Source: a virus | DNA length: 64,000 bases | IMG/VR virus record: IMGVR_UViG_3300020200_000009 | Location: 25,744 to 89,743 of that record | Strand: one strand, 5' to 3' | Part shown: in pieces, positions 3,001-50,289 of the stretch | How positions within the stretch are numbered: the stretch's first letter is position 1 | How the letters are laid out: every line of letters starts with the position of its first letter | The notes under the pieces: generated by a model | The model's database searches: none | What the model was told of the DNA's origin: nothing | Seen by the model: the letters and a program-made list of their open reading frames with translations, nothing else | Translations under genes and position numbers: made by a program

Positions 3001-6000
3001 TGTGTATTATTTGAAGGTGGTAGCACTGCCCAGGGCACATGGATTGGTTTCAGAGATAATGGCACTTATTTAAGATTACGTGCAGGTACTGGAACTACTG
3101 CATATTCTGGAGGTGCAAGTTATACTAGTGATACTGGATTAGCAATGTTAGATATTCCTGTCTCAACATTGACTACAGCTGGTTACATGGATGGTAACCA
3201 ACATGAATTAGTCTGGGAAGTTAGAGTTGGCGGTAATATTGCAACTGGACCAGGAAGAGTTAGATTGTTTATTGATGGTAACCTTGTTGGCGAAGCATCT
3301 ACACCTGGTGTTTTAAATACTGGTCTTGGCGCTGCAGCAGGACTTTGGTCTAATGGTAACGTAGGAACGTTTGCAGCAACTGCAGCTGCAGTACCAAATG
3401 GAGAGCCAACTACAGCATGGCCATACCAAATTACTGGCACCATGTCTTACTATCGTGGTCGTTTAGTAGACCCAGGTTATACTGGTAATGAGGCAGCAGC
3501 AGTTATTGCTGATATTACGACCTTAATGCAAAAAGTTACCAGTGGTATTCAAACTCCAGCAACGGTTGCAACTCGTACATATACCTTACCAATAGTTTGG
3601 CCAGTTAAATTTACTCCAGAATCTGTTAAGCGTGATTTAAGTATTACATTTGATTCTGCTGGCGGTGGCAGTGGTGCAACCAGTACTTGGAATGCTACAT
3701 GCTCAGAAGTTGCTTCTGCAATCAATACATTAATGGAAATATTAATTGATACTATTGAAAATGCAGCAAATAGTAATATTAATTATCTTTCAAGTATAAC
3801 TAGAACATTTAAACCAACAAATAATACCATATATCAATATGGCACTTGCCATGATGTTGTGTCTGCGATAGATACGCTGTTTACCTTAATGTCTGAGACA
3901 TTAGGTGCTGGTGCAGAGAATGCAAAAATGGTTGCAAATATGATTCTCTTCAATCAAACAGCAATTGCTACAAGAGCACTTGATAAAACTACTTCATATT
4001 ATGGCACAACAAATCTAACGATTGGATTCTGTAATAATGTCCTTAAAGCACTTCGTTATGACATGATTACTGGAGGAAATGGGGCAACATTCTACTTGCT
4101 GCAGAGTTGGTTTGATGGCGAAGGAAACTTTATTGCATTCCCCACTGTAACTAGGTCTCATTTAATATATTGCATTACAAGACTCAGAGAATACATTAAG
4201 AGTGCAATGTATTTACTAGGTAGTGACCCAGCGTGGGCAACATATACCACTTATGACCCACCTGGAAGATTAGAATGGTATCAAGAAGCTGCAGAATTTA
4301 TTATAGATTCTTCTCTTAACCCGATTGAATTTGCATTAAGAAATTCTAAATTCCCAACTGAAGCAAAAGTAACATTCCAAGCATCTGCTCATGCAGTAAA
4401 TCTTAAGAATACTTACAATATGGGAATTGATTACAATACTGACCCAGCACTTGTTACTCTCTTACCATTGATAGAAGTCGGATACGAGCGTGCTGAATAT
4501 AGAATTAGAATTAATCGTCCTAACTTCTTCCGTAGAGGAGATATTCTCCAATATGTCCCAGCATCGTCAACTCCTCTTACTGGTTTGCAAAGTAATGAAT
4601 ACTTCTATGTAATTAATGCAGAAGCAAGTTGGTTTGAAATTGGTGCCCACTATATTCATGATGGAAGATTTAGAAAATTTGAGGTAAGCACTACAAATAC
4701 TGGAGCACAAATTTTACAGGTTGTTAGAAGATCTGGAGTTGTACAGAAAGATCCTATTTTTGCAGTTGACCCATCAGATACACCAGTGCTTGGAGGATTT
4801 AATCTATCTGATATAATCTATGGAGTTACTTCAGAAGCATCTGCTGAGGTTGGGTTTGTGCAGAAGAATCTGGCCAAGATATTCAAAACATTCAACAGAT
4901 ATGACTTGATTGATGTCTCTGAAACATTGGGCGTATATGACAACTTTATAAATGGTGAGCAAGTTGTAGTCCAAGGAGCAACAACTAATACTGGATATGT
5001 TTATCAAACCAAAAATACAAATGATGATGGTGAAACATTTGTAAATATCATTGACAAAATTGGCACTATTTCAATTGGTGATACCATCTTAGGTATTACT
5101 AGTGGCACGACTGCTGAAATTGCTGCTATTTCTGACAGGATGTTGTTAAATGTCAAGTCTGGTGATTTCGCAGCAAATCAATGGTTGTTTGCAGAAAATG
5201 ATGCAACGGAAGCATACATTACCGAATATGTAAATAAGAGCGGCACATTGACAGGGAATACAGGAGGACGTATCACAATTGATGTTGAGACTATTCAGAA
5301 TAGTTGGAATACTGGTGATGTAATTTATGGAAGTTTGACCGATTATATTCTTGATGTCAAAGGTATTTCTGGCACTCAACTTCAATTGAATCAGTATATT
5401 CACGGAACGAATGTTTATCAATTAGAGTTAGGAGTTGCAATTACGGATACTGGTGTTGCCGATACATTTAGACCTGGAGATGAAGTATATCTGCTTCAAG
5501 GAACTACGATTAAGAATCCTGGATTCAAAGCTACCGTGACAGAGTATATTAACGATACTATCAATAATATCCATAGATTGTTTATCGCAAACTTGATTGA
5601 TGTTGGAACAGGAGCACCTATTTCAGAAGTTGCTATCAGCTCAAATAATATTGGTAAAGTTGATATCGGGTCTAACTTCCCAACAGTTTACGCAAACACA
5701 ATTTCTTACACTAATACTGGATATACTTCTTATGGTAAAGTTGTTGCAATTGAGCAAAGTGGGATTACTGCGAAAATCTGGGTAGAAAACGCAGTTGGTG
5801 ACTTTGTTAATAACATGACTGTTAAGTCAGATTATGGATGGGGCGCAGGCGTATCCAAAGCAACTATTCTCCAAGGTAGAGTTGATAGATATTTCCGTGG
5901 ATTTGATGGATCTCAAACAACATTTAGTCTGACTATTAATAATGGAGAAGCATACTTCCCAGATCCAGCAGGACATTTACTTGTATATGTAAATGCTGTT

Positions 6001-12195: not shown

Positions 12196-12200
12196 TTATC

Positions 12201-13768: not shown

Positions 13769-16700
13769 ATGCCGCAGAATACTAACCTGAATATCGCTCC
13801 TTATTTTGACGACTTTGATAAGGACAAGAATTTCTACAGAGTCCTCTTTAGACCTGGATTTCCTATTCAGGCAAGAGAACTCACTACCATGCAATCGATT
13901 CTGCAGAATCAGATTGAATCGATTGGTCAACACTTCTTTAAAGAAGGGTCCATGGTCATCCCAGGACAAGTTGGTTATGACCTTAATGTGCAAGCTGTTA
14001 TTCTTCAGCAATCATTCCTTGGTGTTGATATTGAAACGTATCGAGAGCAATTGAATGGGCAAATTATTGAAGGTATTACTACGGGAGTTAAAGCAAAAGT
14101 ACTTTATTCAATCTCAGCAGAAGAATCGGATCGTGGTTATATCACATTATATGTAAAATACGTTGACTCGGGTGATACTGTATCAACAGAAAATTTTAAA
14201 ACATTCCAACCAAATGAGCAACTTCTTGCAGAAAAAGAAATCACATTTGGTGCAACCTTAATTGAAATCGGGTCTCCGTTTGCTCAACTTTTACCAGCAA
14301 ACGCCACTTCACTTGCATCATCAGCATATATTAATGCTGGTGTATATTTTATGAGAGGGCATTTTGTAGATGTCCAATCTGCATATTTGATTCTTGACCA
14401 ATATGGTAATAATCCATCATATAGAATTGGTCTTGAAATAAGCGAATCAATTGTCACTCCAGAGGATGACCCCGAGCTCAATGACAATGCAGCAGGGTCG
14501 TCAAACTATGCAGCACCAGGTGGACATAGATTCAGAATTAAAACATCTCTTACTAAGAAAGTAATTTCAGATGAAACTGATAAAAATTTCATTGAATTAC
14601 TTCGTATTAATAATAGTAAGGTTGAGCAATTTGTTAATGCAACTGCATACTCTGAGTTAGAAAAGAGTCTTGCACGTCGCACGTATGAAGAATCTGGTGA
14701 TTATGTAATTGAATCAATTACAGCTAAAGCACGAGAGCAACTTGATGATGGATTTAATAATGGTGTGTATCGCCCTGGAGAATTGTCAGCACAGAAAAAT
14801 CTAGCGTCTGATGATTTTGTTACATTTGAAGTATCTCCTGGAAGAGCATACGTTAAAGGATATCGAACTGAGTTTTTAGTGCCTCAGTATGTAGATTGCC
14901 CAAAACCAAGAGATTATGAAAGTGTGCAAAATAGCATTCTTTCATTCAGAGTAGGTAACTTCGTTAAGGTATATGATGTATATGGTTGGCCAGATTTAAC
15001 TGGAGAAGGAGTCACGAAAGCATACCAAGTGCTTGAATTATATGATAATTGGACTATTGGCACCACCAATACGGTTGTAGGCACAATGATTGGGCGTACA
15101 CGCACCATTCAAATGCAACTAGATTCTGGTGAGGTATATGATATGTGGATTTTCGATCCACAAATGTTTACTGCTATTAATTTTGCAGCAGGAAATCAGG
15201 CGGTAATAGTTGGAGATGTATTAGTAGGAAGGACAAGTGGTGCTAGAGGATTTGTTGCTCAAGCCCCTGGCGGTACATCATGTATGCTTGAGCAAGTTTC
15301 GGGAGTATTTTTAAATGGAGAAGTGCTTCTGAGAGATAACAGAGTAGTTGGCACTATGACCGCTGCACATACTTACAATCTTACTGATGTTAGAACTTGC
15401 CGTGGTAGAAATAATAACAATGCAATTATTTTTGGAGCAAACTGGCAATTAAATGACCAGCAAGAAATTGAATCATCCACAGTAACAATTGACCAGACTG
15501 GCGGCACTATTACTGGATTCCGTACAAAATTTGCTAATGATTTAAGACCTGGTGATGTAATTACTCCTACTAATACTACTCCAACAGGTAATAATACTCT
15601 TAGAATTACAAGAGTAAACCCAACACAAATTTCCGTGAGCAGTGGAAATGCGTATACTGGGGCACCAGTATCATCACACATTTTTAATTATCTAACTCAA
15701 GTAGCGAAGATTGATTCTGCGCTTAAAAAAGGCACGGTGGCTAGTGGAGAATTTGCATCTCTTACTAGATTAAGACCATTTATCTTCCAAAAAGATTATC
15801 AAGATGGTGAGATGTCTGTTGACTGCGCTCGCGTATCTATGAGGTCTATTACTGATGAATCCTTCTTTGTATATCGCACGTTTACTAATAAGACAGTAGT
15901 TGCTGGTGGCATCACAGTATCTCTGCCAGAATCTGAGCAATTTGCATCGTTAGATAATGAAAACTATGTTTTAACTATCTTGGCACAAAACGGATCTGCA
16001 TATCCTGTCGGAAAAAATCTTGATATTGATGCACTTAATGATGATGGCACTCTTACTGTTACATTTGGTGCAGATAGACAGTCAATTACAATTTCTGGAT
16101 TGACTAATGTGCAAACAGTTAAATTGACTGCACTGATATCAAAAAATATTGTTACTAGAAAAATCAAAACTGCATCAAAGATGCGTGCTATGAAAGTTAT
16201 ACGCACGCAGAATAATAATGATGTGCAGAAATTTGGACTAGCATATGGTAATTTATACGGCACTCGTATTGAAGACAATGAAATATCATTTGCGTTAAAT
16301 GATGTTTATAAGATTCATGCAGTATACGAATCAGAAGATGATTCTGATGCTAGTCCTCCATACATTGTGTTGCAGAATCCAACATTCTTTGATAATGGTA
16401 GTGTAGTTATTGGTAAAACATCTGGTGCACGTGGTAGAGTTATTCAATTTATCAACAGCACATTAAGATTATATTTTATCTCTCTTAACAATATTCCATT
16501 TATAGCAGGTGAGCAAATTGATGGAGTTGATGATGATAATATCCAATTAGTAGGATTTGTAGATGATGCTGAGGGATCTATTTTCAAAGGTAGTAAAGTA
16601 ATTACTACTCAATTTGAATTGGATTCGGGACAGAAACCACATTTCTATGATGTGTCTCGCATGATTCGTTTGCCAGGTTTTTCGGCACCGATTCGTAAAG

Positions 16701-19700
16701 TAATGGTTATCTTTGATTACTTCTTACACGAATCATCTGGTGATTACTTCTCAGCGCAATCATATACAGGTATTGGATTTAAAGATATTCCAAAATATAA
16801 ATTAGATGGGTCCATCAACTGGATTAGAGACCAAGTTGACTTCCGTCCTGGTGTTGGAGAATTGGCATCTGGCACTGGATCTATCACTGCACCATTCTTT
16901 GTAAATTGTGCATCATTGGATTTTGGTGCTCGTCAGTTTGATACTTCAGGTGGAGCTGGTGGGTCTACAATCTTTGATGTGCCTAAAGTAAATACTGAAA
17001 TTAGATTTGACTATACTTATTATATTCCAAGAGCATCAAAACTTTTCTTAACTCATGACAATCAATTAAAGATTGTAAATGGTGCATCTCACCCAGAACT
17101 GCCACCCCCAGATAATATTCAGAATGCTATGTTACTCGCATCTATTGAAATGCGAGCATATGTATATGATGTAGAAAGAGATGTAATCATCAGACCAGAA
17201 ATCATTCGTCGTTATACGATGAAAGACCTTGGGGATATAGAAACTCGTCTACGTAATGTTGAATATTATACTGCACTTTCTTTACTTGAATCTCAAGCAG
17301 AAAATACAAAAACATATGATGACAATGGGTTTGACCGTTTAAAGAATGGTTATGTTGTGGACGATTTCACAGACCATAGCATTGGAGATGTGTTTAACGT
17401 AGATTATAAATGCTCTCTGGATTTCAAAGAAGGTTTCCTTAGACCTTCTCACTATACAACAAATGTGCCATTACAATTGAATTTAGATGCATCTACAGAT
17501 GTTGTAAAAACTGTAGGGAATATGGTCCTTCTTCCATATGAAGATTTGGCTATTATAACTCAACCATATGCATCTCGTACTGAAAATGTTAATCCATTCA
17601 ACGTGTTTGCATTTATTGGTAGAGTTGACCTTTCCCCTGCTTCAGATGATTGGGTGGATATCGATCGTCTACCTGCTCGTATAGAAAACGTAGAAGGTGA
17701 TTTTTCTGCTGTTTCTAGAGATTTACAAGTTGACCAAAACGGATTCGCTCCTATTCAATGGGGGTCGTGGGAGACTAACTGGACTGGAGAATCTTTAGTT
17801 TCAACTAGTCAGTTCACGGGCGACGGTAGTTTTGCACAAGGTGGTCGTCGTCTCGGTCGTTTAGGACACGGACAAGGACAGCAACCAATCTTCGTGCATG
17901 AAAGACGCACATGGAGGGTAGTAAATAACCAAGCACGTCAGGGTGTAAGGACAAGAGTAACCCCAAGAGTTGACCAAAAATCATTGGGCGATACTATCCT
18001 TTCGCAATCTGTAATTCCTTGGGTGCGCTCTAGAAATGTTGGTTTTAACATTGAGAGAGCTAAGCCTCGCACAAGAATGTATCTATTCTTTGATGGAGTA
18101 AACATTACAAATTATGTAACACCAAAAATTATTGAGTTGACAAAGAGTAGCACTCAAGATACAAACACAAATGAAACTCCATTCGTGGTTGGCGAAACTG
18201 TAATAGGACAAACCTCAGGTTGTCGTCTTCGTGTTGCTCCTGCAAATGATGGTTATAAAACTGACCCATATGGTGTCGGCACCGCTCAACTTGCAGAATC
18301 CTATGCATCACAAACCAATTATTTAAATATTGACATTACAGCAATGGCAGAAAGTGTTAATCCAAATTTCTATGGAAATGTATTAACAGGTGAAGTATTA
18401 GTTGGACAAACATCAGGTGCTAGAGCAATTGTTAGAGACCGTCGTATTCTCTGTGATAATATTGGGCAAACAATCGGAACATTCTTTATTCCGTCTCCAA
18501 AAATTGATTCAAATCCACGTTGGGCAACTGGCACCAGAACTGTAAGATTTACAACATCACCAACAAATGATAAAACGCCTGGCACGGTAGATTCTTCTGC
18601 AGAGACTACATATACTGCCTCAGGTCAATTAAGAGTTATACGTGAAAATATTCTTGCAGTACGTAATGCAGAACTTGTTAGAGATACTGTATCGGATGAA
18701 AGAACTGTTATCACTACTAGGACAGATGAGAGACAAATTGGATGGATTGACCCGTTAGCACAATCCTTTATTGTAGATGAGCAAGGCGGAGTATTCTTAA
18801 CAGGTGTTGATGTATTCTTTAGAACTAAAGATGATACTATTCCAATCTCCATGCAAATTCGAACCATGGAAAATGGATATCCGACTAAAGATATTCTTCC
18901 GTTCTCTGATACTACGCTAAGTCCAATAGAAGTTGAATTGTCAGAAAACGCTGCAATTCCAACTAGATTTACATTTAGGTCTCCAGTATACATTAAGTCA
19001 TCGATAGAATATTGCTTTGTGCTCTTATCAGACTCAAACTCATATAATGTTTGGATTTCTAGAATGGGTGATATTGATGTATCAGGCACCAGAACTATTT
19101 CCGAACAACCATATGCAGGTGTGCTATTTAAATCGCAAAACGCATCAACGTGGACAGCAGACCAATATGAAGATTTGAAATTTACAGTTTATCGTGCTGA
19201 CTTTGTATCAAATATTGGTACTGCAATATTTAATAATGCAGAATTAGGTAAAGGAAATTATGGTATTCATAACTTAATTGAAAATCCTATTGAAACTCTT
19301 AAACCAAACCAGCAATTGGTATTAGCAACTGACCAGAATTACAACTTCACAGTTGGAGCCAGAATTGTACAGGAACCCTCAGGTGCATCTGCTACGGTTA
19401 AAGAGTTTGATTCAGTTTCAAATCCAGAAGTATTAAAAATTACTGATATATCTGGTATTTTCTCTGCTGGATTCTTAGATGCTAATGGTAATGCATTCCA
19501 AGGATTGTCATCTTCACAATCAGTAGCAACTATTGTTTTGTCAGCCGTTTATAACGGCACATTCGTAGTTGGTGATATAGTCACTGGCAGCACATCTAAT
19601 GCTGATGGTGTTGTTACATCTTATGCTGCTAATACTCTAACCCTTAACTATGTTGGTAAGAGCTTTAGCACTTCAGATACTTTGACAGCACCAAGTGGTG

Positions 19701-21088
19701 TAAGTGCAACTATTACATCCATTAATTATAGTGGAGATTCTCGTAATGCATATCCAACTGCAGCACCTTCTTATCCTTCTGATGATAAGGAAGTATTAGT
19801 GCGTCATAGAAATCATGGTATGCACCAACGAACAAATAATGTATTGATTGAAGGTGTAGTTTCTGAAGTGCCACCAACAACCCTAACAACAACTTTAACC
19901 GTAGGATCATCAACGATTCAAATTCAAGATGCATCTCAATTCCACAGAATTATTGGTGGAGCAACTATAGGTAACCTAAATCCTGGTTATATTAAAATCA
20001 ATAATGAGTTGATTCAATATGCTGGAATTTCAGATAACGGTCAAACAATTACTGTTGCAACTGGCGGCAGAGGAGCAAGCGGCACTGCTGATGTTGAGCA
20101 CCCATCTGGTAGCGTAGTTGAATGTTACAATCTTGATGGAATTCCCCTGGTTGATATTAATAAACTTCACCAAAAACTTGAGTGTCCATGGATGGATACA
20201 TATATGTTAGCCACTAATCACGTAGCAACTAATGGAATTCGTGCAGGTGGCACTAATGCTTATGGCACACAAAACGTGCAGTTTGAGGTATTGACTCCAA
20301 CAGTATCTACTATGGTATTGCCACAGACACAAATTGTAGCTCGTGTAAATACGACAACTGCAACTTCAGTTGGAGATGGTGGAGGAGAAGGTGGGTCTTC
20401 TCCAATTGACCAAGCGTCATTTATTAATAATGGAAACTTTACAGATGTTGTATTGAATAACAAAAACATTTTCTCATCTCCTCAAATGATTGCTTCTAAG
20501 GTCAATGAAGATAATGAATTAGACGGAAATAAATCCTTTACGATGGCTGTTGAATTGACAACAGAAAAGCCTACTCTTTCTCCATGTATTGACCTTGACC
20601 GCACTTCATTAATCTGCACAACCAATAGAATTAATATGTGGCCAGGTGGACCTAATGTTTATGGTCAACAGAATCAGATTGATAGAACTCAAGATGTTTC
20701 TACCTTCCCAATTGGTGACCAGAATGACGCTGTGTATATTACAAGACTTGCACGTTTAGCTAAAGAAGCTCGCTCGCTGAAGGTTGATTTCCAAATCGCT
20801 CGTCATCCTACTACTGAAGTTAAAATTTACTATAGAGCATTTAATACTGGCGACGCAGCAGACTATAATACTCTTGGTTGGACAATTATGCCTCTACCAA
20901 CAAGTAATATTAATGCAGCAGAAGCATATGATACTTCACCTACAGACCAATTCTTGTGGAAAGATTATTCATATGAAGTAAGAGGTCTAAGTTTTAACGC
21001 ATTCCAAGTTAAAATTGTTATGAGATCTAAGAGTCAAGCTAATGTGCCACTCATTGCAGATTTACGTGCTATTGCACTTGCTACATAA
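13769..21088 (+). CDS. Giant DUF4815-type virion structural protein
   Basis: The 2439-residue protein starts with a DUF4815 signature: PYFDDFDKDKNFYRVLFRPG, then QARELTTMQSILQNQIE and an HFFKEGSMVIPG turn. Such proteins are widespread in T4-like cyanophages and are generally assigned to the baseplate or virion. Later regions contain at least five short beta motifs of the form GExxVGxTSGAR (near 15210, 16400, 18190, 18390 and 19570). A module with INNELIQYAG near residues 2065-2100 is shared with the tail sheath. A Gly-rich GDGGGEGGS linker sits near 20380. The C-terminus (ITRLARLAKEARSLKVDFQIAR region) is a compact beta-rich end domain. Which T4 protein it replaces, if any, is unclear; gp7 or gp10 analogy is only positional. 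Confidence 0.8.
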   Translation: MPQNTNLNIAPYFDDFDKDKNFYRVLFRPGFPIQARELTTMQSILQNQIESIGQHFFKEGSMVIPGQVGYDLNVQAVILQQSFLGVDIETYREQLNGQIIEGITTGVKAKVLYSISAEESDRGYITLYVKYVDSGDTVSTENFKTFQPNEQLLAEKEITFGATLIEIGSPFAQLLPANATSLASSAYINAGVYFMRGHFVDVQSAYLILDQYGNNPSYRIGLEISESIVTPEDDPELNDNAAGSSNYAAPGGHRFRIKTSLTKKVISDETDKNFIELLRINNSKVEQFVNATAYSELEKSLARRTYEESGDYVIESITAKAREQLDDGFNNGVYRPGELSAQKNLASDDFVTFEVSPGRAYVKGYRTEFLVPQYVDCPKPRDYESVQNSILSFRVGNFVKVYDVYGWPDLTGEGVTKAYQVLELYDNWTIGTTNTVVGTMIGRTRTIQMQLDSGEVYDMWIFDPQMFTAINFAAGNQAVIVGDVLVGRTSGARGFVAQAPGGTSCMLEQVSGVFLNGEVLLRDNRVVGTMTAAHTYNLTDVRTCRGRNNNNAIIFGANWQLNDQQEIESSTVTIDQTGGTITGFRTKFANDLRPGDVITPTNTTPTGNNTLRITRVNPTQISVSSGNAYTGAPVSSHIFNYLTQVAKIDSALKKGTVASGEFASLTRLRPFIFQKDYQDGEMSVDCARVSMRSITDESFFVYRTFTNKTVVAGGITVSLPESEQFASLDNENYVLTILAQNGSAYPVGKNLDIDALNDDGTLTVTFGADRQSITISGLTNVQTVKLTALISKNIVTRKIKTASKMRAMKVIRTQNNNDVQKFGLAYGNLYGTRIEDNEISFALNDVYKIHAVYESEDDSDASPPYIVLQNPTFFDNGSVVIGKTSGARGRVIQFINSTLRLYFISLNNIPFIAGEQIDGVDDDNIQLVGFVDDAEGSIFKGSKVITTQFELDSGQKPHFYDVSRMIRLPGFSAPIRKVMVIFDYFLHESSGDYFSAQSYTGIGFKDIPKYKLDGSINWIRDQVDFRPGVGELASGTGSITAPFFVNCASLDFGARQFDTSGGAGGSTIFDVPKVNTEIRFDYTYYIPRASKLFLTHDNQLKIVNGASHPELPPPDNIQNAMLLASIEMRAYVYDVERDVIIRPEIIRRYTMKDLGDIETRLRNVEYYTALSLLESQAENTKTYDDNGFDRLKNGYVVDDFTDHSIGDVFNVDYKCSLDFKEGFLRPSHYTTNVPLQLNLDASTDVVKTVGNMVLLPYEDLAIITQPYASRTENVNPFNVFAFIGRVDLSPASDDWVDIDRLPARIENVEGDFSAVSRDLQVDQNGFAPIQWGSWETNWTGESLVSTSQFTGDGSFAQGGRRLGRLGHGQGQQPIFVHERRTWRVVNNQARQGVRTRVTPRVDQKSLGDTILSQSVIPWVRSRNVGFNIERAKPRTRMYLFFDGVNITNYVTPKIIELTKSSTQDTNTNETPFVVGETVIGQTSGCRLRVAPANDGYKTDPYGVGTAQLAESYASQTNYLNIDITAMAESVNPNFYGNVLTGEVLVGQTSGARAIVRDRRILCDNIGQTIGTFFIPSPKIDSNPRWATGTRTVRFTTSPTNDKTPGTVDSSAETTYTASGQLRVIRENILAVRNAELVRDTVSDERTVITTRTDERQIGWIDPLAQSFIVDEQGGVFLTGVDVFFRTKDDTIPISMQIRTMENGYPTKDILPFSDTTLSPIEVELSENAAIPTRFTFRSPVYIKSSIEYCFVLLSDSNSYNVWISRMGDIDVSGTRTISEQPYAGVLFKSQNASTWTADQYEDLKFTVYRADFVSNIGTAIFNNAELGKGNYGIHNLIENPIETLKPNQQLVLATDQNYNFTVGARIVQEPSGASATVKEFDSVSNPEVLKITDISGIFSAGFLDANGNAFQGLSSSQSVATIVLSAVYNGTFVVGDIVTGSTSNADGVVTSYAANTLTLNYVGKSFSTSDTLTAPSGVSATITSINYSGDSRNAYPTAAPSYPSDDKEVLVRHRNHGMHQRTNNVLIEGVVSEVPPTTLTTTLTVGSSTIQIQDASQFHRIIGGATIGNLNPGYIKINNELIQYAGISDNGQTITVATGGRGASGTADVEHPSGSVVECYNLDGIPLVDINKLHQKLECPWMDTYMLATNHVATNGIRAGGTNAYGTQNVQFEVLTPTVSTMVLPQTQIVARVNTTTATSVGDGGGEGGSSPIDQASFINNGNFTDVVLNNKNIFSSPQMIASKVNEDNELDGNKSFTMAVELTTEKPTLSPCIDLDRTSLICTTNRINMWPGGPNVYGQQNQIDRTQDVSTFPIGDQNDAVYITRLARLAKEARSLKVDFQIARHPTTEVKIYYRAFNTGDAADYNTLGWTIMPLPTSNINAAEAYDTSPTDQFLWKDYSYEVRGLSFNAFQVKIVMRSKSQANVPLIADLRAIALAT

Positions 21089-21112: not shown

Positions 21113-21158
21113 CAACCCTTACAAGGTTGATTATAATTATTTTTAGATACTATGTCAA
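21113..21158 (+). promoter_or_regulatory. 46-bp regulatory element, copy 1 (promoter with spacer palindrome)
   Basis: CAACC and GGTTG form an inverted repeat with a 7-base loop (21113-21129), followed by ATTATAATTA. A TATAAT -10 box (21132-21137) lies 17 bases after a weak -35 (TTTGCA, 21109-21114), so the palindrome sits in the spacer. The element ends in TATGTCAA, which here includes the start codon of the next gene. A copy with 38 of 46 matching bases lies at 49708-49753. It could act as an early promoter with operator, or the hairpin plus T-rich tail could be a weak terminator. Confidence 0.55.
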
Positions 21159-21442
21159 GTCCTTTTTATTCGCAACCACCTCAACATCCATCAACCGATA
21201 AGATTAATATTTTCAAACCAAATCTTATACCTGTTGAAGGTAGAGAGGGTTGGTTTCGAGACCCAGATACAAATGCAATTGTAAATTGTAATGATACTGA
21301 GTATGATAATTACATGGCATCATATGAGCGCCGTCAAAAGAAAGATTCTAAATTAGAGTCTTTACAAGATGATGTTAATACGCTAAAATCAGATCTCGGT
21401 GAAATCAAAGACCTACTCAAATTATTAACTAAAGGAGAATAA
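21152..21442 (+). CDS. Small conserved phage protein with C-terminal coiled coil
   Basis: A 96-residue protein of a type I recall between cyanophage tail genes, with no known function. The first half is Pro-rich and polar, with a GREGWFRDPDTN segment. Residues ~65-96 (LESLQDDVNTLKSDLGEI and following) have a clear leucine heptad pattern. The ATG lies at the end of the duplicated 46-bp regulatory element, so the gene would have a very short leader if the TATAAT box there is used. The stop is one base before the next start, implying cotranscription. Confidence 0.7.
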   Translation: MSSPFYSQPPQHPSTDKINIFKPNLIPVEGREGWFRDPDTNAIVNCNDTEYDNYMASYERRQKKDSKLESLQDDVNTLKSDLGEIKDLLKLLTKGE

Positions 21443-46411: not shown

Positions 46412-46434
46412 AGCACCCTTCGGGGTGCTTTTTT
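46412..46434 (+). terminator. Rho-independent terminator after gp23
   Basis: GCACCC (46413-46418), a TTCG tetraloop and GGGTGC (46423-46428), followed by six T. It ends the head gene cluster, 27 bases after the gp23 stop. In T4 a terminator also follows gene 23. Confidence 0.93.
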
Positions 46435-47812: not shown

Positions 47813-49269
47813 TTACTATTGTAAAGAAGAACGAAATCTATTTAAAGGTCGAAAGTGAGCAACATATCCATAAGGAATTGAGTGAGCACTTTTCGTTTGA
47901 TGTGCCTGGTGCAAAATTCATGCCACAATATAAATCCCGTGTATGGGATGGAAAGATTCGTTTATACTCTCCTGGCACAGGAGAAATATATGTGGGTCTT
48001 TATGATTATCTTATTGAGTATCTAGAAAATAAAGGGTATGAATATGTTATTCAACACAGTAAGTTTTATGGAATTCCCAATGAAACTGACGAATCTATTA
48101 CACCTGAAAATGTTGCATCTTTTGTTAGGTCTTTAAATCTACCCTTTAAGATCAGAGACTACCAACTTAAAGCACTTTTCTCTGCACTTAGAGACAATAG
48201 AAAATTATTATTATCACCTACAGGGTCTGGAAAATCTCTAATTATTTACACCCTAGTGCGTTGGCACTTGCAGCATGATAGAAATATTCTTATCATTGTG
48301 CCTACAACATCTCTAGTTTCGCAATTAAAGAAAGACTTCAATGACTATGGGTGGTATGCTGACCACTACTGTCATGAAATTATGGCAGGTAGAGATAAGT
48401 ATACACATAAAGAAGTTGTTATTTCAACATGGCAATCTATCTACAAAGAGCCTCGCAAATTCTTTGAAAGGTTTGATGTGATAATTGGAGATGAAGCACA
48501 CCTTTATAAAGCAAAAAGTCTGTCAGGCATTCTCACAAAATGCCATGATGCAAAGTATAGAGTCGGGCTGACAGGCACCTTGGATGGAATGCACACGCAT
48601 CAACTTGTACTTGAGGGGTTGTTTGGTCGGTGCGACAAGGTGACGAGTACTGCTGCGTTGATGCAGAAGGGACAATTGACTCCTCTAAAGGTAAAGATTC
48701 TTCTGTTGAAGCATGGTTATGTTCCATTTGATTATTATCAACAAGAGATGGATTATATAGTATCCCATCCTTCACGAAACAATCTAATTTGTAACCTTGC
48801 GAAAGATTTAAATGGAAATACATTGATACTATTTAACTATATCGAGAAGCACGGAGACCCCTTATGGGAATTGCTAAATAGTAAAGTCAGTGGGGACCGC
48901 AAAATATTTTTTATTCACGGCGGAGTTGATGCAGTCCAAAGGGAAGAAGCAAGACAAATTTGCGAAACAGAAAAGGATGCTATTATCCTTGCATCATATG
49001 GTACTTTTTCTACAGGTATTAATATTCGTAACCTACATAATATAATTTTTGCATCTCCATCAAAATCGAGAGTAAGAAATCTTCAATCGATTGGACGGGT
49101 TTTGAGAAAGGGTGATAATAAAGCACAGGCTATATTATATGATATTGCCGACGACTGCTCTAGAAATTCCTCTCACAATTATACACTTCGACATCTCATT
49201 GAAAGAATGAAAATATATGACGAAGAAAAATTTGATTATGAAATCACCAAAGTCAATCTAAAAAAATGA
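47809..49269 (+). CDS. uvsW: DNA/RNA helicase UvsW
   Basis: A 486-residue superfamily 2 helicase. A small N-terminal domain (KSRVWDGKIRLYSPGTGEIY) precedes the motor domains. Motifs seen: IRDYQLKAL (Q-like), LSPTGSGKSL (Walker A, ~137), VPTTSLVSQL, DEAH in IIGDEAHLY (~228), GLTGTL (motif III), and SIGRVLRKG (motif VI). UvsW unwinds R-loops and branched DNA, shutting off origin-dependent replication and favouring recombination-dependent replication late in infection. The length is near T4 UvsW (503). Confidence 0.93.
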   Translation: MITIVKKNEIYLKVESEQHIHKELSEHFSFDVPGAKFMPQYKSRVWDGKIRLYSPGTGEIYVGLYDYLIEYLENKGYEYVIQHSKFYGIPNETDESITPENVASFVRSLNLPFKIRDYQLKALFSALRDNRKLLLSPTGSGKSLIIYTLVRWHLQHDRNILIIVPTTSLVSQLKKDFNDYGWYADHYCHEIMAGRDKYTHKEVVISTWQSIYKEPRKFFERFDVIIGDEAHLYKAKSLSGILTKCHDAKYRVGLTGTLDGMHTHQLVLEGLFGRCDKVTSTAALMQKGQLTPLKVKILLLKHGYVPFDYYQQEMDYIVSHPSRNNLICNLAKDLNGNTLILFNYIEKHGDPLWELLNSKVSGDRKIFFIHGGVDAVQREEARQICETEKDAIILASYGTFSTGINIRNLHNIIFASPSKSRVRNLQSIGRVLRKGDNKAQAILYDIADDCSRNSSHNYTLRHLIERMKIYDEEKFDYEITKVNLKK

Positions 49270-49697
49270 TTAATTACATTCGCCACGATAACGAATTCTA
49301 TGGTAGTTTAAAGTTGACCTCAGGAGAAGAAGTCCTAGGAGAAATGTTTGCTGTAGAAGAAGATGGTATGTCAGTGTTTTATATTTCAAACCCTGTTTCT
49401 GCACATATGCATCAAGTTGAAAGAGATGGTCAACTTAGCATGGCAGCAGGATTTGTGAAGTGGCAACTTTGGTCTGATGAAGAATTTTTTATTGTCAAAG
49501 AACCAGACATCATTACTTGTGCGCCAATGTCTCAAGAAGCAGTTATGATGTATAAATTATGGTGGAGAAAAGAAAGCGGAAAAAACGATAGTGAAACTAA
49601 TGATAGTTACTCTATAGATATGAATGAAAATATGGGGTTAGTCGGTAAAGTTTCAGAAGCTCGTATTAAACTAGAAGATATTTTTAAGAACTCATAG
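49266..49697 (+). CDS. Conserved cyanophage protein with Lsm-like N-terminal half
   Basis: A 143-residue protein coupled to uvsW by ATGA. The first ~60 residues (YGSLKLTSGEEVLGEMFAVE, then FYISNPVSAHMHQVE) have the strand-and-turn pattern of a small Sm/Lsm-type barrel. The rest is polar and acidic, ending in a helix (SEARIKLEDIFKNS). A role in RNA binding or late transcription is conceivable from its place before gp55, but nothing in the sequence proves it. It is not obviously gp33. Confidence 0.7.
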   Translation: MINYIRHDNEFYGSLKLTSGEEVLGEMFAVEEDGMSVFYISNPVSAHMHQVERDGQLSMAAGFVKWQLWSDEEFFIVKEPDIITCAPMSQEAVMMYKLWWRKESGKNDSETNDSYSIDMNENMGLVGKVSEARIKLEDIFKNS

Positions 49698-49707
49698 AGG
49701 TAACTTT

Positions 49708-49753
49708 CAACCCTGACATGGTTGATTATAATTACTTTTATTCTGTATGTCAA
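49708..49753 (+). promoter_or_regulatory. 46-bp regulatory element, copy 2 (upstream of gp55)
   Basis: This matches 38 of 46 positions of the element at 21113-21158: CAACC, 7-base loop, GGTTG (49708-49724), then ATTATAATTA with a TATAAT box at 49727-49732, a T-rich stretch, and TATGTCAA at the same distance. The hairpin lies in the spacer between the -10 and a poor -35 (CTTTCA). It may be an early promoter with an operator, or a weak terminator of the uvsW operon. Confidence 0.6.
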
Positions 49754-49763
49754 CCTTGACATA
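49746..49763 (+). promoter_or_regulatory. 18-bp perfect palindrome over gp55 promoter -35, operator candidate
   Basis: TATGTCAA, two C, TTGACATA is a perfect 8-bp inverted repeat around a CC centre. Its right arm contains the TTGACA -35 box of the promoter that follows, so a bound dimer would block RNA polymerase. Confidence 0.55.
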
Positions 49764-49784
49764 TCGTGAAGAATATTATATTAT
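49756..49784 (+). promoter_or_regulatory. Sigma-70-type promoter for gp55
   Basis: TTGACA (49756-49761), a 17-base spacer and TATTAT (49779-49784) form a near-consensus promoter for the host vegetative sigma. The predicted start near 49791 gives a leader of about 30 bases to the gp55 ATG. This fits expression of the late sigma factor before late genes. Confidence 0.65.
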
Positions 49785-49821
49785 TATTTGGTGACCAAGT
49801 TATCGGCATATGTATACTTTA

Positions 49822-50289
49822 ATGAGCGTTAAGAAAAAACAACACTACGTAGATAACAAACAATTTCTTGACGAGATAGTTAAGTATCGCCAAGCGGTTG
49901 ACGCTGCAAAAAAATTAGATAAACCAAAACCACGTATCAGTAGGTATATTGGAGACTGTTTTTTGAAGATAGCAACTCACCTGTCATATCGCCCTAACTT
50001 CATTAACTACATGTATAAAGAGGATATGATTTCAGACGGTGTGGAAAATTGTGTCCAGTATATAGATAATTTTGACCCAGCAAAATCAACAAATCCATTT
50101 GCATATTTTACTCAAATTGTGTATTATGCTTTTTTACGTAGGATTGCCAAAGAGAAGCGTCAAATGGATATCAGAGATAAGTTAATTGAGAAGAATGGTT
50201 ACGACCAAGTATTCCATTCAGATACAAACGAGGACTCGTCAGAACTTAATTCAATTAAGAGTCGTATTGAAACTAGCATGAGATATTGA
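49822..50289 (+). CDS. 55: Late-transcription sigma factor gp55
   Basis: A 155-residue divergent sigma-70-family protein. I start it at MSVKKKQHYVDNKQF because homologues begin so; an ATG four codons upstream (49810) is the alternative, and neither has a clear Shine-Dalgarno site. The RNA-polymerase core-binding and -10 recognition region is recognisable as DMISDGVENCVQYIDNFDPAKS followed by NPFAYFTQIVYYAFLRRIAKEK. With the gp45 clamp and a co-activator, gp55 directs host polymerase to TATAAATA-type late promoters. T4 gp55 is 185 residues. Confidence 0.9.
   Translation: MSVKKKQHYVDNKQFLDEIVKYRQAVDAAKKLDKPKPRISRYIGDCFLKIATHLSYRPNFINYMYKEDMISDGVENCVQYIDNFDPAKSTNPFAYFTQIVYYAFLRRIAKEKRQMDIRDKLIEKNGYDQVFHSDTNEDSSELNSIKSRIETSMRY

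Follow-up and report, generated by a model that had tools for sequence, protein, structure and literature searches.

The timing of middle and late transcription in the T4-like cyanophages is only partly understood. Work by Doron et al. in the ISME J in 2016 reportedly identified a novel early element together with host-like middle promoters in the cyanophage Syn9, and this early-gene regulatory element is said to be present in Syn9 and P-TIM40. The marine T4-like cyanophages (cyanomyoviruses) are without motA and asiA (PMC2984593). A literature search, which did not extend to the Syn9 transcriptome study, found no described cyanophage operator. The element reported here, which pairs a minus-strand promoter (P-) with a putative operator and lies upstream of gp55, where it overlaps or abuts the promoter of that gene (P+), resembles the Doron early element in being regulatory DNA of T4-like cyanophages. 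With the classical phage repressor sites it shares a consensus promoter followed by an imperfect dyad over the predicted start and a small number of copies per genome, but unlike those sites it occurs in virulent T4-like phages, and one of its copies is divergent from the gene for the late sigma factor. It is similar to the T4 middle promoters in its sigma-70 -10 box and in a possible middle timing, but no MotA box, which characterizes those promoters, was found in its -30 region, where a canonical TTGACA -35 box is present instead. Like T4 oriF and oriG it provides a promoter that is antisense or intergenic beside uvsY/uvsW genes; however, elsewhere the same unit is co-directional with the genes that it precedes. 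Lastly, as in the PR/PRM competition of lambda, P- and P+ are not plausibly co-occupied and the operator would act upon only one of them, whereas no lysogeny is involved here and the geometry of the two promoters varies between genera from back-to-back to interleaved.

The window refers here to the 64,000-nucleotide stretch that was analysed, which is part of the 89.7-kb virus record IMGVR_UViG_3300020200_000009. The first-pass annotation of this DNA had described a duplicated element in two intergenic regions, and the duplication was borne out: positions 49708-49753 and 21113-21158 are identical at 38/46 positions, with the runner-up ungapped match in the window at 27/46. The motif CAACC-N7-GGTTG occurs with zero mismatches only at these two places in the window (21113 and 49708), and the 27-bp core CAACCCNNACANGGTTGATTATAATTA was likewise found only there when up to three mismatches were tolerated (0 in 100 shuffles). 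A scan of the whole record for the promoter and operator yielded exactly the same two sites with scores of 43-44, as compared with 15 for the next real candidate and at most 20 for shuffled sequences. The features of the gp55 copy are as follows.

49266-49697, plus strand: gene for an Sm-like small protein (phrog_471; PF16243), to which P- would transcribe antisense
49708-49724, minus strand: inverted repeat and probable operator, CAACCATGTCAGGGTTG, immediately following the -10 box
49725-49730, minus strand: P- -10 box (TATAAT), with a 17-bp spacer as in 45/45 loci
49748-49753, minus strand: P- -35 box (TTGACA in 45/45 of the gp55 loci bearing P-)
49746-49763, no strand: 18-bp near-palindrome, TATGTCAA-CC-TTGACATA, with the -35 boxes of P- and P+ back to back
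49756-49761, plus strand: P+ -35 box (TTGACA), at the right arm of the palindrome
49779-49784, plus strand: P+ -10 box (TATTAT), the predicted start being some 18 nt upstream of the gp55 ATG
49810-50289, plus strand: gp55, late-transcription sigma factor (phrog_234; E=4.6e-69)

Judged from its sequence, each copy of the repeat is a strong host-type (sigma-70) promoter, P-, on the minus strand, which at gp55 points away from the gene. Both copies (49753-49725 and 21158-21130) read TTGACA-N17-TATAAT and agree with the consensus at 12/12 positions, their 17-bp spacer falling within the 16-18 bp by which the -35 and -10 boxes of sigma-70 promoters are separated. The orientation of the element had previously been misread, as TATAAT is the -10 box and TGTCAA the -35 box of a promoter that lies on the opposite strand; because ATTATAAT is its own reverse complement, the minus-strand orientation of these two boxes was hidden.

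A separate promoter for gp55 over the right arm of the palindrome had also been proposed, and this part of the earlier reading stood: P+ occupies that position, and a sigma-70-like promoter was observed upstream of gp55 in 74/74 distinct loci, in five of which the scan chose the wrong candidate. The first-pass annotation had further placed two tandem plus-strand promoters before gp55 under an operator, with the palindrome as a second operator. The TATAAT box can indeed be read on both strands and a palindrome is real at this locus. However, the first TATAAT serves P-, the plus strand is without a conserved -35 box before it, and it is the minus-strand -35 box and its 17-bp spacing that are invariant. 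The palindrome, described as perfect, has perfect 8-bp arms, whereas its central CC is not self-complementary. As its right arm is the -35 box of P+, the palindrome amounts to two -35 boxes placed back to back, and comparison of the gp55 loci, where P- overlaps or abuts P+, indicates that it is not a conserved unit. Among relatives the P- and P+ -35 boxes are separated by anything between -16 and +17 bp where P+ was correctly assigned (the five mis-picked loci gave -50) and the palindrome dissolves: the boxes are 17 bp apart in S-SZBM1 and interleave in Syn9, Syn19, and P-SSM4, and the 18-bp palindrome is absent from all four. Hence, neither the palindrome as an operator nor the tandem arrangement could be upheld, and the latter appears hardly tenable.

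Since the inverted repeat directly follows the -10 box of P-, transcription from P- at gp55 is predicted to start inside the repeat, at about 49717-49719, and the minus-strand 5' end would be expected within AACnnTGTnnnGGTT. The dyad (C)AACCnTGTnnGGGTT(G) over this start is a probable operator. As expected for a site of this kind, it is conserved, holds a fixed position relative to the promoter and recurs within one genome; its distance from the -10 box is 0-1 bp in 22/24 cyanophage records and in 4/6 held-out genomes. The conservation and linkage to gp55 in related cyanophages that the first-pass annotation had anticipated were thus found when the genome and its relatives were searched, and binding of a regulator is probable. 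Alternatively, the dyad could bind an activator, or a modified polymerase could recognise it. As for late transcription, the element does not correspond to the T4-type late promoter NATAAATA. Late-promoter-like NATAAATA motifs were observed elsewhere in the window (at 12200, 21696, 31529, 41395, 43901, 46771, and other positions), several of them just before long ORFs.

An inverted repeat located after a gene may also be its intrinsic terminator, consisting of a hairpin and a U-rich tail. A scan does mark a 6-bp stem at 49707-49725, and the predicted energies of the two copies are -6.0 and -4.8 kcal/mol. However, this stem is not preserved among relatives: the homologous stretch of Syn9 does not form it, and in the AACACTG variants the fourth pair is lost with no compensating change. 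As termination also leaves the conserved spacing of the -10 and -35 boxes unexplained, we regard it as most improbable. A strong terminator-like hairpin, AGCACCCTTCGGGGTGCT-TTTTTATTAA, is present at 46412-46429 of the window.

The second copy of the element, at 21 kb, has the following features.

13769-21088, plus strand: gene for a 2439-aa protein (phrog_358), to which the second P- would transcribe antisense
21113-21129, minus strand: second inverted repeat and probable operator, CAACCTTGTAAGGGTTG
21130-21135, minus strand: second P- -10 box (TATAAT), with a 17-bp spacer
21153-21158, minus strand: second P- -35 box (TTGACA), overlapping the phrog_473 start codon at 21152
21152-21442, plus strand: gene for a virion structural protein (phrog_473), with its ATG within TATGTCAA

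In this copy TATGTCAA therefore also contains the start codon of the gene that follows. The copy is without a divergent promoter partner, and as no promoter faces it, competition with P+ cannot explain its presence; here P- may repress the 2439-aa gene through antisense transcription. A more general proposal is that early in infection P- yields a cis-antisense RNA, by which expression of the upstream genes is kept low (those for the Sm-like protein and uvsW at gp55, and the 2439-aa gene at 21 kb). In both window copies, and at 210/253 of the contig sites listed, P- is indeed antisense to the upstream gene, and the antisense RNA CfrI known in S-PM2 (PMC2984593) provides a precedent. Against this, the element is co-directional with genes at the cp12/cpeT and early loci. 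Additionally, the 3' end of the upstream gene showed no excess of synonymous-site conservation in phages with P- as compared with those without, a signal that a cis-antisense RNA would not need; an antisense RNA of conserved sequence was rejected for lack of such a signal. Overall, cis-antisense control as the main function seems unlikely, if deserving of more weight than the other alternatives considered here. The phrog_471 family, whose gene adjoins gp55 in many cyanophages, is annotated as 'methylamine utilization' and matches an Sm-like domain (PF16243, E=5e-22).

The distribution of the element was examined in several datasets. Among 74 distinct gp55 upstream regions, P- was found in 45, always with TTGACA and the 17-bp spacer, and is missing altogether from the other 29; in P-HM2 the promoter at gp55 is kept and the AAC..GTT site is lost. 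The full promoter and operator pattern was present at 27 places in 17/24 records (0 for a reversed-pattern control), and a shorter gapped pattern, P- with an AACnnTG.. operator, at 45 places in 22/24 records (two control matches). Complete genomes typically contain 2-4 copies each, which are divergent from gp55, before a cluster of early small genes (Syn9, Syn19, S-SM1, P-RSM4, P-SSM4, and others) or often at cp12/cpeT; in several genomes a copy precedes cp12, cpeT, or the gene for a 2OG oxygenase. The designation early denotes gene position and a sigma-70 promoter rather than measured timing, and the names cp12 and cpeT are based upon similarity to genes annotated in S-SM1 and ACG-2014a. In four complete genomes the distribution was bimodal, the operator accompanying only 2-3 of 48-66 promoter-like sites, with scores of 18-24 for the sites bearing it and at most 8 for the rest. 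Of six further genomes that were held out (P-SSM2, P-SSM7, S-SSM7, S-SSM5, P-HM1, and S-SM2), the first four possess gp55-divergent sites; early-cluster sites are present in P-SSM7 and S-SSM5 and a cp12/cpeT site in S-SSM5, and no sites were detected by pattern in P-HM1 and S-SM2.

An exact pattern scan of IMG/VR identified 31 stretches, and the contexts that were printed consisted of gp55, phrog_473, and a third locus. The latter is the cp12/cpeT region, in which the minus-strand promoter is aimed straight into a cpeT-like gene. The isolate S-SZBM1 carries the element at gp55. For each of two variants at least about 120 IMG/VR stretches were obtained, with 0 for a reversed-operator control, and the 253 sites listed, which were not deduplicated, comprise 177 that are gp55-divergent, 33 at phrog_473/358, 23 at cp12/cpeT/2OG, six in the early cluster, and 14 others. 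Based upon these sequence comparisons, the anatomy of the element is conserved across Kyanoviridae, and most marine T4-like cyanophages carry copies at two or three places. As there are only 2-4 sites per genome and the element is absent by pattern from P-TIM40, it is probably different from the early element of Doron et al., with some overlap possible. Another repeated intergenic element, approximately TTTGACTCTTATAGAATACACGA, was also observed, some of its 10-mers being present in 3-4 intergenic regions of Syn9 (L269-L277) and three of S-SM1 (L260-L268); this repeat could be the early element that was reported for Syn9.

The copies in the early cluster and at cp12/cpeT point into the genes, and this co-directional arrangement argues for an ordinary mRNA promoter controlled by an operator. 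It also bears upon the possibility that P- serves as an R-loop replication origin, its transcript priming leading-strand synthesis in the manner of T4 oriF and oriG. These T4 origins need a promoter and an A+T-rich unwinding element but do not depend on a specific sequence of the RNA, and an early promoter seems to serve oriE (PMC3016281). The proximity of the gp55 copy to uvsY/uvsW recalls T4 ori(uvsY). The co-directional copies are nevertheless a poor fit to an origin, and this function is very unlikely.

The sites also provide some insights into the nature of the regulator. In a set of sites assembled by hand, in which operator positions 4-5 had been left free in the search, these positions agree in 73% of within-genome pairs and in 23% of between-genome pairs (permutation p=0.0002, relatedness ignored), and the promoter spacer also agrees slightly more often within genomes (p=0.014). 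Different variants are present in S-PM2 (AACTCTG) and Syn30 (AACCATG), for both of which WH7803 is the recorded host. Such covariation among the copies of one genome implies that the regulator is probably encoded by the phage. One suggestive candidate, at present a lead only, is the AbrB/MazE-like family phrog_661 (PF04014, E=3e-6 for one member), which is present in 19/20 first-panel records, P-HM2 being the exception, and whose gene is located inside the early cluster in S-SM1-type phages. Its co-occurrence with the site is imperfect, as P-TIM40 has the protein without the site and S-SSM7 the site without the protein, and the association has a Fisher p of 0.009, or 0.07 when a marginal S-SM2 match is counted, with kinship ignored. 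The window's own genome encodes a phrog_661 protein, a possible regulator, outside the window (L258, G000 4910-5083). Two other families, phrog_718 and phrog_707, were rejected as regulators in view of their absence from many site-bearing phages.

Alternatively, the regulator could be encoded by the host and exploited by the phages. A few Cyanobiaceae do carry the promoter and operator, four of 300 sampled genomes having one copy each (control 0). However, host copies are rare, which led us to reject a host regulon; the variant of the site depends on the phage and not on the host; and three of the copies, L521, L522, and L524, share homology and have integrase or resolvase genes nearby. A host-encoded regulator is therefore quite unlikely. 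A scan of 84,980 genomes gave three matches, viz. one cyanophage-like contig with a cpeT homologue and two Synechococcus. The chromosomal copies (AACTCTGTnAGGGTT; L521, L522, and L524, and also L520 and L523) are found at about locus position 1501. In L521, L522, and L524 the element is about 284-303 nt upstream of an ORF of 61-62 aa, with a weakly primase-like ORF also nearby and a tRNA gene near two of them; a structure of the 62-aa ORF from a host island predicted by AlphaFold has a mean pLDDT of 62. These three homologous copies look like integrative elements, and their use of the phage operator as satellites is a speculation.

The reading that we favour, to which we assign a probability of roughly 0.55, is that P- and its operator form a unit in which a phage repressor would silence P- and thereby relieve competition at P+. 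A phage-encoded DNA-binding protein would recognise the operator and probably repress P-. RNA polymerase bound at P- early in infection would compete with P+; as the footprint of the polymerase on P- would overlap that on P+ at gp55, competition is the simplest model. Once the regulator accumulates, P- and the promoters of the early cluster and the auxiliary genes would be silenced together, the competition at P+ would be relieved, and the late sigma factor would be made; the antisense RNA from P- would itself be secondary. Timing of the late switch by the competition of opposed promoters is, in our view, a reasonable idea. A broader proposal, in which one operator couples the shut-off of early and auxiliary genes with the release of the late sigma factor and, in addition, picocyanobacterial integrative elements sense or subvert the infection in a satellite-like manner, is unlikely when taken as a whole.

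The conservation of this element suggests that the passage from early to late expression involves a switch not hitherto described. For the question of how transcription is timed in the T4-like cyanophages, a promoter with an operator that is divergent from gp55 provides a concrete test site and a route to the regulator. It may also follow that the auxiliary photosynthesis and carbon genes of these phages share their control with the late switch.
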